NCBI GenBank assembly: GCA_024655945.1
Contig: JANLFK010000012.1
Coordinates: 62,001 to 126,000 of the forward strand
From: a candidate division KSB1 bacterium
GTDB lineage: Bacteria > Zhuqueibacterota > Zhuqueibacteria > JANLFK01 > Oleimicrobiaceae
Reading direction: 5' to 3'
DNA: 64,000 bases
Shown here: positions 24,814 through 29,719 of the stretch, one piece after another
How the letters are laid out: every line of letters starts with the position of its first letter
Position numbering within the stretch: position 1 is the first letter of the stretch
The notes under the pieces: model-generated
Told to the model about the DNA's origin: nothing
Seen by the model: the letters and a program-made list of their open reading frames with translations, nothing else
Databases searched by the model: none
Program-made: the position numbers and the translations under genes

Positions 24814-24842
24814 TTGACTTTTCGCCAGGAGGACTGTATATT
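24814..24842 (+). promoter_or_regulatory. lexA promoter
   Basis: TTGACT (24814-24819), 17-base spacer, TATATT (24837-24842). The predicted transcription start falls inside the LexA operator that begins three bases further on, a classic arrangement for autorepression. Confidence 0.8.
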
Positions 24843-24845
24843 TAT

Positions 24846-24863
24846 GGTGCACAAATGTACACC
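24846..24863. promoter_or_regulatory. LexA operator, lexA copy
   Basis: GGTGCACAAATGTACACC, an imperfect 18-bp palindrome of the form GGTG-N-AC-N4-GT-N-CACC, directly downstream of the lexA -10 box. An identically built site stands at 25570-25587 before the imuB-like gene. Assignment as the LexA site is inferred from these two positions. Confidence 0.75.
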
Positions 24864-24887
24864 ACGAGAGGATTTCAGGGGAAAGGC

Positions 24888-25499
24888 ATGGACGAATTGA
24901 CGCCGAAACAAGCTCTGGTGCTGAGCCTTATCACCCGGCGGGTCAACGAGGGCGCCCCTCCGACGCTGCAGGAGCTGGCCGACGAGCTGGGCGTGACTTC
25001 CAAGACCGCGGTCACCAAGCACCTGGATGCGTTGGTCAAGAAGGGCTACATCTCCCGCTCCAGTCTGGCCCGGGGCATCAGGCTGCTCAGGTCGCGCGCC
25101 GAGCAGACCCGCGACCGCGAGGTGCGCGTGCCCCTGTTGGGGACCATTACCGCAGGCCGCCCGGTACTGGCACAGCAAAACGTCGAAGATTATCTCCACC
25201 TGCCAGGCACGTTTCTGCGCTCCAAAGGGGCGCATTTTGCGCTGCGCGTGCGCGGCGATAGCATGAAGGACGCCGGGATCCTGGACGGCGACATCGTCAT
25301 CGTCAAATCCACAAAAGAGGCGGATAACGGCGACGTCGTGGCCGCCCTCATCGGCGAGGAAGTGACCATCAAGCGGCTGGTCATCAAGGGCGCAAAGCGC
25401 TACCTGAAGGCGGAGAACCCGGCGTTTAGTGACATCTATCCTGAGGAAGCATGGAGCATTCAGGGAAAAGTAGTGGGGCTCATCCGCCATTTTGGCTAA
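24888..25499 (+). CDS. lexA: LexA repressor
   Basis: 203 residues from the ATG at 24888 (MDELTPKQALVL, the family N-terminus). Residues 1-70 form the winged helix (APPTLQELADELGVTSKTAV, then HLDALVKKGYI). The self-cleavage site is A89-G90 (ITAGRP), the catalytic Ser is S125 (RGDSM) and the Lys K162 (TIKRL), with the 37-residue Ser-Lys spacing of E. coli LexA. It represses SOS genes until RecA filaments trigger cleavage. It is preceded by its own promoter and operator, so it is autoregulated. The second operator copy suggests that it also controls the imuB-dnaE2 genes downstream. Confidence 0.95.
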   Translation: MDELTPKQALVLSLITRRVNEGAPPTLQELADELGVTSKTAVTKHLDALVKKGYISRSSLARGIRLLRSRAEQTRDREVRVPLLGTITAGRPVLAQQNVEDYLHLPGTFLRSKGAHFALRVRGDSMKDAGILDGDIVIVKSTKEADNGDVVAALIGEEVTIKRLVIKGAKRYLKAENPAFSDIYPEEAWSIQGKVVGLIRHFG

Positions 25500-25509
25500 G
25501 AGCCGCAAG

Positions 25510-25560
25510 AAGAGAGGTTCTGGTGACCTGCTGAAAGTTATGCAGGGCGTCTCTTTTTTT
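25510..25560 (+). terminator. Probable lexA terminator
   Basis: Eleven bases after the lexA stop: outer stem AAGAGA/TCTCTT, inner stem CCTGC/GCAGG around a ten-base loop, ending in a run of seven Ts. The internal bulge makes it weaker than ideal. Confidence 0.45.
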
Positions 25561-25569
25561 GCCCGATAA

Positions 25570-25587
25570 GGTGAACTAATGTACACC
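25570..25587. promoter_or_regulatory. LexA operator, imuB copy
   Basis: GGTGAACTAATGTACACC, matching GGTG-N-AC-N4-GT-N-CACC exactly. It ends two bases before the ATG of the ImuB-like gene, leaving no room for a ribosome-binding site. Confidence 0.75.
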
Positions 25588-25589
25588 AT

Positions 25590-26753
25590 ATGCAACCGCG
25601 TGCCATCATATACGCCGACGCCACCGCCTTTCCGGTGCAGGTGGAGCGCTTGCGCCACCCGCGGCTCCGGGGCTATCCGGTAGTCATCGCGCCGCCTGGG
25701 GCACGGGCGCAGGTGCTGGCGCTGTCGTTCGAAGCCCGCCAGGCCGGCCTGCGCAAAGGGATGCGCCTGAAGGATGCGCTGAAGCAGTGCCGGGATGTGG
25801 TCGTGCTGCCCCCGGACGAGCGCATCTACGCCCGGGCCACGCAGGCGATGAACAAGGTCCTCAGCTCCCTGTCGCCCGTGTTCGAGCCCGAGCGCTACGG
25901 CCACACCTACCTGGACATCACCAGCACGCAGCGCCTCTTCGGCGGGGCAACCGACACCGCCTGGCGCGCCCAAAAAGAGCTCAAGAGCCGCCTGCAGTTG
26001 GAGGTAGCGGTGGGACTGGCCAGCAACAAAATGGTCAGCAAGTTTGCGGCTGCGGTCATCAAGCCGAGCGGCCTGCGCCGGGTCCCGCAAGGGGAGGAGG
26101 GCAAGTTTATCGCTCCCTTCCTCGTGGGCCTGCTGCCGGCGGTGACCAAGCCCATCCAGGAGCACCTGTTGGACTTGAACATTCGGCTCGTGCGGCACCT
26201 GCAGCAACTCTCCCTGCCGCAACTGGCGGTCGCCTTTGGCCAGGATGCGGTAGCTCTGTATCAGAACGCGCGCGGTGTTGACCCTCGTCCGGTGCAGCCG
26301 CCGGATCAGGCGCCGCGAGTTTGCGTCAGTCGCACGCTCCCGGAGGAGAGCAACGACCTGGAGGTGCTGCGTGCGGCGTTGTTTGTCCTGTTGGAAAAGG
26401 CAGCGCGCAGCTTGCGCACCAGCCGCCTCTTCGCCCACGCGGCCCGTATCCACATCTTTTATGCCGACTATCGCGAGGCGGCGGGCCAATGTCGCCTGCC
26501 GGTGCCTTCCAACATGGAGATCGAGCTCTATCCGGCAGTGGCGGCCCTTTTGGAAACAATTCTCGCCCGCCGCACGCGTGTGCGGGCCCTCTCGCTTGTG
26601 CTGTTTGACCTAAAATCGCAGCCACGCCAGCTGCCTCTTTTTGCGGAAAGTTCCACGACCAAGAGCGCAGCGCTGACCCAGGCGATCGATCGTATCCGCA
26701 CCCGTTTCGGCGAGGAGGCCATTCGCTTTGCCCGGAGCATGGTCTGCCCATGA
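25590..26753 (+). CDS. imuB: ImuB-like, catalytically degenerate Y-family DNA polymerase
   Basis: 387 residues. The Y-family framework is clear: IIYADATAFPVQVE at the start, SPVFEPERYGHTYLDIT, then VAVGLASNKMVSKFAAAVIK (the little-finger side helix-hairpin region). The first metal ligand is kept (D10), but the catalytic Asp-Glu of the SxDEAYLD motif is replaced by G104-H105, so it should not polymerise. This is the hallmark of ImuB, which recruits DnaE2. The tail holds QLPLF (347-351), a beta-clamp-binding motif. The ATG sits two bases from the LexA operator with no Shine-Dalgarno sequence, so translation is probably leaderless. It overlaps dnaE2 by four bases (ATGA). The usual imuA/recA-like partner gene is not adjacent. 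Confidence 0.85.
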   Translation: MQPRAIIYADATAFPVQVERLRHPRLRGYPVVIAPPGARAQVLALSFEARQAGLRKGMRLKDALKQCRDVVVLPPDERIYARATQAMNKVLSSLSPVFEPERYGHTYLDITSTQRLFGGATDTAWRAQKELKSRLQLEVAVGLASNKMVSKFAAAVIKPSGLRRVPQGEEGKFIAPFLVGLLPAVTKPIQEHLLDLNIRLVRHLQQLSLPQLAVAFGQDAVALYQNARGVDPRPVQPPDQAPRVCVSRTLPEESNDLEVLRAALFVLLEKAARSLRTSRLFAHAARIHIFYADYREAAGQCRLPVPSNMEIELYPAVAALLETILARRTRVRALSLVLFDLKSQPRQLPLFAESSTTKSAALTQAIDRIRTRFGEEAIRFARSMVCP

Positions 26754-29719
26754 ACTTTGTCCATCTACACACCCACTCGCACTACTCCTTTCTGGAGGGC
26801 GCAGACAGCATCGAGGCCCTGTGTGCCGCTGCTGCCCGGCATGAGATGCCTGCGCTAGCGCTCACCGACACCAATGGCCTGTACGGCTTGATCTGGTTTG
26901 TGCGGGAGGCGCAGGAGTGCGGAGTGCAACCCATCGTGGGCGCGGAGGTCGTTACGGACCAGGCGCGGGCCGTGCTGCTGGTGAAAAGTGCCCAAGGCTA
27001 CCGCCGGCTCTGCCACATCCTCTCGGCTCGCCATTTGCGCGAGGACTTTTCCTTAGCCGAGGAGCTGATTCAGGACCGCCAGGGGCTTGTCGTCATCAGC
27101 CACGCGCTCCCCCTGCTGGAGGCAGTGGTGCGCCAGAGTGGTGCCGCCGACGTCTACGTGGAGTTAGCGCCCGGTTCTGTGCAGGCCCCGCTGCTCGCGT
27201 GTGCCGCGCGCCATCGCCTGCCACCGGTGGCCACCAACGACGTTCATTTTGTGGAACCCCAGGGGTACGGCATTCATCGGCTGCTGCGGGCCATCGACCT
27301 CAACACCACGCTCTCCCGTCTGCCGCCGGTGGTGTGCGCTCATCCGCAGAGTTGGTTCAAGAGCCCTGCGCAGATGGCGGCGCTTTTCCCCCATTGTCCA
27401 GAGGCCCTTGCCAACACCTGGCGCATCGCCGAGCAGTGCACCTTCGTGCCGGAGCATACTGGCTGCATCTTCCCCAATCCCAATGGCGCAGCCGGCTACC
27501 AACGCCTGCGGGAGTTGAGCTATCAGGGCGCTCTGTGGCGTTATGGGGCAATCACCCCGCCGGTGCGGGAGCGCCTGGAGCACGAGTTGGCGATCATCCA
27601 GCAGAAGGGGTTTGCGGACTATTTTCTCGTCGTGTACGATATCGTCCGCCAGTCGCCGCGCACCTGCGGGCGAGGCTCTGCAGCGGCCAGCTTGGTGGCC
27701 TACTGTCTGGGCATTACCCACGTGGACCCCCTGCGGCACAATCTGTTTTTTGAGCGCTTTCTCAACGCCGGGCGAAAAGACCCGCCGGACATCGACGTGG
27801 ATTTTGCCTGGGACGAGCGCGACGAGGTGCTGGACTATGTGTTGCGCACCTATGGCGAGGCGCGCGCCGCCATGGTGGCCAACCACGTCTGCTTCAAAGC
27901 ACGGGCTGCCCTGCACGAAATCGCCAAGGTCTACGGCCTCACCGAGGAGGAAATCACCAGGGTCACCAAGAGGTTCTCCCGCCTCTGGTTCGCCGGCGAT
28001 TTTGTCGAGCTCATGGGCTCCCATCCGCTCTTTCGCGGCCAGGAGCTCCCCCCACCGTGGCCAGAGATTATCGCGCTGGCCAAGCGACTGCATGGCGTGC
28101 CTAAGCAGCTCTCCGTGCACTGCGGTGGGGTGGTCATCGTCCCGGATTGCATCGACAACTATGTGCCACGCCAACGTGCCGCCAAAGGGGTCACCATCAT
28201 CCAGTGGGAGAAGGATCAGACCGAAGAGGCGGGCCTGGTCAAAATCGACCTTCTCGGCAACCGCTCCTTAGCAGTCATCCGCGATGCCTTGCAGGCGATC
28301 CGCACCAACCATGGCGTGGAAATCACTTACCAGGACTGGAACCCCATCGACGACCCCAAGACGCAGGAGTTGATCAGAAACGGCGACACCGTGGGCGTCT
28401 TTTACGTGGAATCGCCTGCCATGCGCCAGCTGCAGAAAAAGGCACAGACCGGCGACTTTGAACACCTGGTGATTCATTCCAGCATCATCCGGCCGGCAGC
28501 CAATCTCTTTATCCAGGCCTATTTGGCGCGTCTCAAAGGGGCCCCCTACACGCCCCTCCATCCTTTGCTGGCCGACATCCTCAAGGAGACCTACGGCATC
28601 ATGGTCTACCAGGAAGACGTTGCCAAGACCGCCATGGCTCTGGCCGACTTTGACCCGGCCGAGGCAGACGAGTTGCGCAAGATTTTGTCCAAGAAGCATC
28701 GCCACAAGCGCCTGGCGGACCTGAAGGCCAAGTTCTACCGCGGTGCTTTGGCCAAGGGTGTCGCACGGCAGACCATCGATGCAATCTGGCAGATGATTAT
28801 GAGCTTCGAGGGCTACTCCTTCTGCAAGCCCCACAGTGCCAGCTACGCGCTGGTGTCGTTCAAATCGGCCTACCTGCGCGCGCACTACCCGGCGGAGTTT
28901 ATGGCCGCGGTCATTTCCAACCAGGGAGGCTACTACTCCACCTTCGCCTATCTTTCGGAAGCGCGGCGCATGGGGCTGAAGGTGCTGCTGCCGGACGTCA
29001 ACCGCAGCGAACGCCACTACACCGGCAGGGGGCGAGAGTTGCGCGTCGGCCTGCTGCAGATTAAAGGCCTGTCCGAGGCAAGCATCGCGGCCATTTTGGC
29101 AGCGCGCGCCCACGGGCCATTCCGCTCGTTCGACGACTTTCTGCAGCGCGTGCGCATCGACCCGGCGCAGGTGCGCCTGCTCATTAAAGCCGGAGCATTC
29201 GACTGCGTGGAGCCGCACGCCTCGCGCCCCGAGCTCATGTGGCACCTGCAGTACTGGGCTGCCAAAAGGCACCGCAGTGCCGCACCGGTGCTCTCTCTGT
29301 TCCCGGACGAACCCCTTGACTTCCCCGACATCCCGGACTATGACGAGCGCACCGTCCTGCGTCACGAAATGGAGATATTGGGGTTCCTCATCAGTCGCCA
29401 CCCACTGACCCTGTACCAGGAACGCCTCAAAGGGCTGGACTATGTGCCGGCCAAAAAGCTCCCCCGTTACGCCGGGCGCACGGTGACGACTATCGGCTGG
29501 TGGGTGACCGGCAAGGTGGTCTCCACCAAGCGCGACGAACCGATGGAGTTTATGAGTTTTGAGGACATTACCGCGCTCTATGAGACGGTCTTTTTCCCCC
29601 AGGCCTACGCCAAGTTCGCGCGGATGATCAGCGACACGCGGCCGTACGTGCTGCGCGGGCGCGTCCAGGAGGAATACGGGGCAGTGACCCTCAACGTGTT
29701 CGACGTCCGCTTTCTGTGA
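26750..29719 (+). CDS. dnaE2: Error-prone DNA polymerase III alpha subunit DnaE2 (ImuC)
   Basis: 989 residues, shorter than replicative DnaE (about 1160) and in the ImuC range. PHP domain first (HLHTHSHYSFLEGA, then LTDTNGLYGL), then the palm with CGRGSAAASLVAYCLGITH and the metal-binding acids in PDIDVDF (D347, D349, D351), the fingers/HhH part (LQIKGLSEASIAAILAARAH) and a C-terminal OB-fold region (GWWVTGKVVSTKRDEPMEFM). DnaE2 copies past lesions and causes SOS mutagenesis with ImuB. Its start overlaps the imuB stop. It is presumably transcribed from the LexA-controlled promoter before imuB. Confidence 0.92.
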   Translation: MNFVHLHTHSHYSFLEGADSIEALCAAAARHEMPALALTDTNGLYGLIWFVREAQECGVQPIVGAEVVTDQARAVLLVKSAQGYRRLCHILSARHLREDFSLAEELIQDRQGLVVISHALPLLEAVVRQSGAADVYVELAPGSVQAPLLACAARHRLPPVATNDVHFVEPQGYGIHRLLRAIDLNTTLSRLPPVVCAHPQSWFKSPAQMAALFPHCPEALANTWRIAEQCTFVPEHTGCIFPNPNGAAGYQRLRELSYQGALWRYGAITPPVRERLEHELAIIQQKGFADYFLVVYDIVRQSPRTCGRGSAAASLVAYCLGITHVDPLRHNLFFERFLNAGRKDPPDIDVDFAWDERDEVLDYVLRTYGEARAAMVANHVCFKARAALHEIAKVYGLTEEEITRVTKRFSRLWFAGDFVELMGSHPLFRGQELPPPWPEIIALAKRLHGVPKQLSVHCGGVVIVPDCIDNYVPRQRAAKGVTIIQWEKDQTEEAGLVKIDLLGNRSLAVIRDALQAIRTNHGVEITYQDWNPIDDPKTQELIRNGDTVGVFYVESPAMRQLQKKAQTGDFEHLVIHSSIIRPAANLFIQAYLARLKGAPYTPLHPLLADILKETYGIMVYQEDVAKTAMALADFDPAEADELRKILSKKHRHKRLADLKAKFYRGALAKGVARQTIDAIWQMIMSFEGYSFCKPHSASYALVSFKSAYLRAHYPAEFMAAVISNQGGYYSTFAYLSEARRMGLKVLLPDVNRSERHYTGRGRELRVGLLQIKGLSEASIAAILAARAHGPFRSFDDFLQRVRIDPAQVRLLIKAGAFDCVEPHASRPELMWHLQYWAAKRHRSAAPVLSLFPDEPLDFPDIPDYDERTVLRHEMEILGFLISRHPLTLYQERLKGLDYVPAKKLPRYAGRTVTTIGWWVTGKVVSTKRDEPMEFMSFEDITALYETVFFPQAYAKFARMISDTRPYVLRGRVQEEYGAVTLNVFDVRFL

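Follow-up and report, generated by a model that had tools for sequence, protein, structure and literature searches.

The lexA-imuB-dnaE2 locus analysed here carries two 18-bp sites of the design GGTG-N-AC-N4-GT-N-CACC, one at the lexA promoter and one directly before imuB, and the 3.94-Mb genome has no further exact match. Based on the sequence comparisons described below, we consider it very probable that both are sites of the LexA encoded between them, which would repress its own gene as well as imuB-dnaE2. LexA boxes change between phyla, and the present results provide a defined box for a class for which we found no described SOS system, tie this box to a form found in Ignavibacteria, and point to a regulon that seemingly comprises error-prone repair alone and does not include recA.

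Two sites at the lexA-imuB-dnaE2 locus

The features of the locus are listed below by their positions in the window, i.e., the whole 64,000-nucleotide stretch of DNA that was analysed.

24814..24842, + strand: lexA promoter, TTGACT-N17-TATATT (10/12 consensus bases; 0.2 expected from shuffling)
24846..24863, + strand: candidate LexA operator 1, GGTGCACAAATGTACACC (18 bp, pattern match)
24888..25499, + strand: lexA, 203 aa, winged helix-turn-helix and S24 peptidase (TIGR00498, PF01726, PF00717)
25550..25569, + strand: conserved stretch TCTCTTTTTTTGCCCGATAA before operator 2, near-unchanged in three congeners
25570..25587, + strand: candidate LexA operator 2, GGTGAACTAATGTACACC (18 bp, pattern match)
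25590..26753, + strand: imuB, 387 aa, Y-family, ImuB-like (PF00817, PF11799, sequence)
26750..29719, + strand: dnaE2-type error-prone DNA polymerase III alpha subunit, 989 aa (PF07733)

The original prediction of two sites of this design, one after the lexA -10 box and one two bases before the ATG of an imuB-like gene, was borne out in both form and placement (24846-24863 and 25570-25587). Operator 1 starts 3 bases past the -10 box TATATT (24837-24842), itself separated by a 17-base spacer from TTGACT (24814-24819), and 2 bases separate the 3' end of operator 2 from the imuB ATG at 25590. The description of the sites as 18-bp palindromes holds for the constrained positions, which pair perfectly in both, but is slightly generous for the full length, where the N positions are partly unpaired. 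Exact matches to the pattern are rare: the 64-kb window has 2, whereas 100 dinucleotide shuffles averaged 0.01 and never gave as many as 2 (0/100), and the genome-wide expectation is about 0.23 (12 fixed bases, 3.94 Mb, equal base frequencies). Removing the outermost bases from the pattern yielded one further match in the genome, inside a gene. A genome scan at two mismatches returned 170 matches vs. 241 for a reversed-pattern control, that is, no excess, and hence the signal lies in the two exact sites.

The gene between the two sites encodes LexA according to the curated model TIGR00498 (202.5 bits against a cut-off of 110.95). The protein matches solved LexA repressors over its full length and, when aligned with them, has the cleavage residues intact (Ala-Gly near residue 89, Ser125 and Lys162); the nearest LexA in the named-genome collection comes from a Calditrichaceae genome (51%). 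The imuB product is assigned to ImuB and not to a working polymerase IV because its catalytic Asp-Glu pair is replaced by Gly-His (RYGHTYLDIT). Its gene overlaps dnaE2 by 4 bases, and the dnaE2 product scores above the cut-off of TIGR00594 and below that of PRK05672 (the error-prone subfamily). All three congeners have two DnaE genes per genome, dnaE2 and a longer one elsewhere, and the locus has the make-up of a mutagenic cassette, i.e., a predicted catalytically dead Y-family ImuB beside a second DnaE. At this locus no imuA lies between lexA and imuB, and the terminator search in the same interval gave nothing stronger than a weak match of the kind that shuffled sequence also gives.

Conservation within the genus and the proposed role of operator 2

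Both operators are present in both other congeneric species (G001 and G002). The three congeners have the same operator 2 sequence, the sole change in operator 1 falls on the free fifth position (C/C/T), and the lexA -10 box is invariant. That is, the lexA promoter has a palindrome that relatives retain, as is characteristic of a LexA operator.

We infer LexA binding, repression, RecA-dependent induction and the mode of action of operator 2 from the sequence. Specifically, a LexA dimer on operator 1, which is expected to overlap the lexA transcription start, would cover the lexA promoter at its start region, thereby repressing the gene (autoregulation), and a dimer on operator 2 would repress imuB-dnaE2 at the imuB start. 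The latter could work either by covering a second promoter with its -10 inside the operator, in which case the imuB message would be nearly leaderless, or by stopping read-through transcription from lexA; TCTCTTTTTTTGCCCGATAA is possibly the -35 region of an imuB promoter. Following DNA damage, RecA filaments would trigger the self-cleavage of LexA, both operators would be released, and translesion synthesis would be switched on.

Alternatively, imuB-dnaE2 might be transcribed from the lexA promoter only, with operator 2 being a relic or a roadblock as opposed to a separate control. Several relatives with a tightly coupled lexA-imuB-dnaE2 have the lexA operator alone, and the sigma-70 promoter search before imuB called none, as would be expected under this scenario. 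However, the three species show almost no change in operator 2 and in its preceding T-rich block, whereas the flanking DNA and the rest of the lexA-imuB gap have diverged, and we regard the relic or roadblock scenario as somewhat unlikely. Accordingly, we favor repression of imuB-dnaE2 through its own site; this second operator looks like an addition in this genus because the coupled lexA1-imuB-dnaE2 of several relatives has a single operator.

The box across the class and in Ignavibacteria

The class comparison covered the DNA upstream of 46 lexA1 orthologues (one side of a tree branch with a support of 80). Exact GGTG-N10-CACC was found in 26 of these 46 promoters vs. 0.14 expected based on shuffling, and every other spacing from 2 to 19 occurred in only 0 to 2 promoters each. 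As in the window, the match is mostly located a few bases past the -10 box. The exact 8-base frame is absent from the other 20 promoters, about 8 of which match at one mismatch, and the ten inner bases vary across the class. Thus, the full design, GGTG-N-AC-N4-GT-N-CACC, is exact for this genus but not for its class: the class-wide fixed motif is GGTG-N10-CACC, and only in this genus and some outgroups are the inner AC-N4-GT bases also fixed.

All 22 of the Ignavibacteria lexA promoters examined carry RGTGNACN4GTNCACY at two or fewer mismatches (about 0.2 of 22 in shuffles), and for this reason the form with the AC-N4-GT core may be the earlier one. In contrast to the placement after the -10 box in the window's class, the Ignavibacteria box is mostly found directly behind the -35 element (usually right after TTGACA), i.e., between the promoter elements. 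The conservation at both genes in three species, together with the class-wide occurrence of the box at lexA promoters, strongly supports the original assignment of the two sites to LexA.

Extent of the regulon

The expectation that further sites would be found before recA and other damage genes failed: only lexA and imuB-dnaE2 have sites, and none was found upstream of recA, recN, uvrA or the second dnaE in this genome (G000) or, apart from a weak match near recN in G002 (see below), in its congeners. Consequently, a regulon-wide test cannot confirm the LexA site within this genome. Similarly, in 25 class genomes (a set that includes one partial recA and one short upstream stretch), the 1.5 kb upstream of recA contains neither a LexA1 nor a LexA2 box that could be recognised. 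The classical SOS arrangement, with recA under the operator of lexA, is not what we observed, and the LexA regulon of this genus appears, from the pattern searches, to be minimal, consisting of lexA and imuB-dnaE2, that is, mutagenic repair without recA. For comparison, the imuY-imuB-C-dnaE2 cassette of Deinococcus is controlled by LexA/RecA and its recA by IrrE/DdrO (PMC8072749); no alternative control of recA is known here.

It is also conceivable that the regulon is larger, with degenerate sites missed by the strict pattern and with recA and other genes under weaker boxes. Only 8 bases are fixed across the class and, therefore, real sites can differ by several bases; further boxes do exist in some relatives (G057), and, our scans being pattern-based, there may be weaker LexA sites elsewhere in the genome. 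However, the relaxed pattern GGTG-N3-WWW-N4-CACC showed no excess over the control in the three congeners (8/9 vs. 9/9 in G000), and all three share this AT-centred pattern at lexA and imuB only. Further, recA of G000 lies at the end of a long gene run (dnaX, ebfC, recR, pgsA, pgpA, cinA, a thpR-like gene and others, with names assigned by eye from the translations), and its control by a distant operon promoter was rejected since the 11-kb recA region has no site at one mismatch or fewer. Hence, we consider a larger regulon unlikely and favor the minimal one.

Among the individual candidates for additional members, 15 of the 16 near-match sites checked in G000 fall within long open frames, and the remaining one (C2:310579) is surrounded by unrelated metabolic genes. 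G001 has one more exact match (C104:804), which lies within an open frame and lacks an exact counterpart in G000 and G002, and a weak GGTG-N10-CACC match near recN was seen in G002 alone. As a separate observation, two full-length uvrA genes are present about 8 kb apart in G000 (C1:431572-442329) and in G001 (C107), and one was found in G002.

Finally, it is very improbable that another regulator (an unrelated repressor or activator) owns both sites and that LexA acts elsewhere, even though recA and other classical SOS genes have no site and the binding of LexA is read from sequence, given that the box tracks the lexA promoter across the class (26/46), that a sister form is found at the Ignavibacteria lexA promoters, and that LexA regulates its own gene in almost all groups studied.

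Relation to known LexA boxes

Neither site has the arms of the E. coli box CTGT-N8-ACAG, and the Firmicutes box GAAC-N4-GTTC is not matched either (GCAC/GTAC in site 1 and GAAC/GTAC in site 2). The LexA box of Fibrobacter succinogenes, TGCNCN4GTGCA, shares the TG-N-AC-N4-GT-N-CA frame and has a C at its free base, but is shorter and without the outer GG/CC found here. The earlier statement that the box is neither of the E. coli nor of the Bacillus type is thus correct for both consensus forms, but the box is not unrelated to the latter: it has the same core register, G-N-A-C-N4-G-T-N-C, as the Firmicutes/Actinobacteria GAAC-N4-GTTC (PMC3323433), and GAAC itself occurs in the left half of operator 2, although the third base is relaxed (free) here and essential outer GGT/ACC flanks replace C/G. 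The box of Geobacter sulfurreducens, GGTT-N10-AACC (PMC8565304), is also an 18-bp palindrome with outer GGT/ACC arms and a ten-base interior, but arm base four is G/C here and not T/A (i.e., the outer frame is one base per half away), the interior here contains AC-N4-GT, and it is GGTG/CACC with N10 that is found in the 26 lexA promoters. The cyanobacterial RGTACNNNDGTWCB (PMC3091678) shares the AC-N4-GT centre but is 14 bp long and differs in the bases outside the centre. That is, since its frame is near the Geobacter box and its centre is in the register of the GAAC-N4-GTTC and cyanobacterial boxes, the present box is, judged by sequence, a distinct member of a broad known group and not an isolated design. 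A 2021 paper gives the number of reported LexA box types as 17 (PMC8565304). Our literature search found no earlier description of a GGTG-N10-CACC type of LexA site, none of LexA in Ignavibacteria or Zhuqueibacterota, and none naming Caldithrix.

A second LexA lineage in the class

Many genomes of the class (including G005, G009, G010, G014, G017, G018, G022, G054 and G060) have a second LexA (LexA2) beside LexA1, with about 38% identity to it, and the boxes at the lexA2 promoter are of the GTGAAC-N4-GTTCAC or GGGTACATTAATACCC types. A search for targets of the LexA2 box in five relatives gave mostly no clear excess over the control, except for the lexA2 promoter itself. The present genus has one LexA only (LexA1). 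Our tentative reading, to which we give slightly less than even weight, is that the class has two LexA lineages with separate operators, LexA1 being linked to imuB-dnaE2, and that this genus kept LexA1, with its SOS response cut to mutagenesis and recA outside. If true, this would represent a natural case of a proposed model, in which lexA duplication leads to operator divergence and regulon loss. The presence of LexA2 in many relatives, yet its absence here, makes the group a test case for shifts of operators and regulons after duplication.

Further box-bearing promoters in relatives

In G057, promoters that carry GGTG-N10-CACC and a -10 element (C143:2896-2922 and C224:61575-61602) lie 26-31 bases upstream of two broken integron integrases. 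LexA boxes of the E. coli type are known to control integron integrases, and a 2011 survey reported only E. coli type LexA sites at integron-integrase promoters (PMC3108266). The boxes in G057 fit a LexA site because such control is known, and these promoters may represent integrons under a different LexA box. Further, in G057 and G058, which belong to two genera, a small DUF6504-like gene directly follows a -10 box and GGTG-N10-CACC and is, by this arrangement, a likely LexA1 target. Both the integrase remnants and the DUF6504-like gene provide further support for the box being a LexA site.
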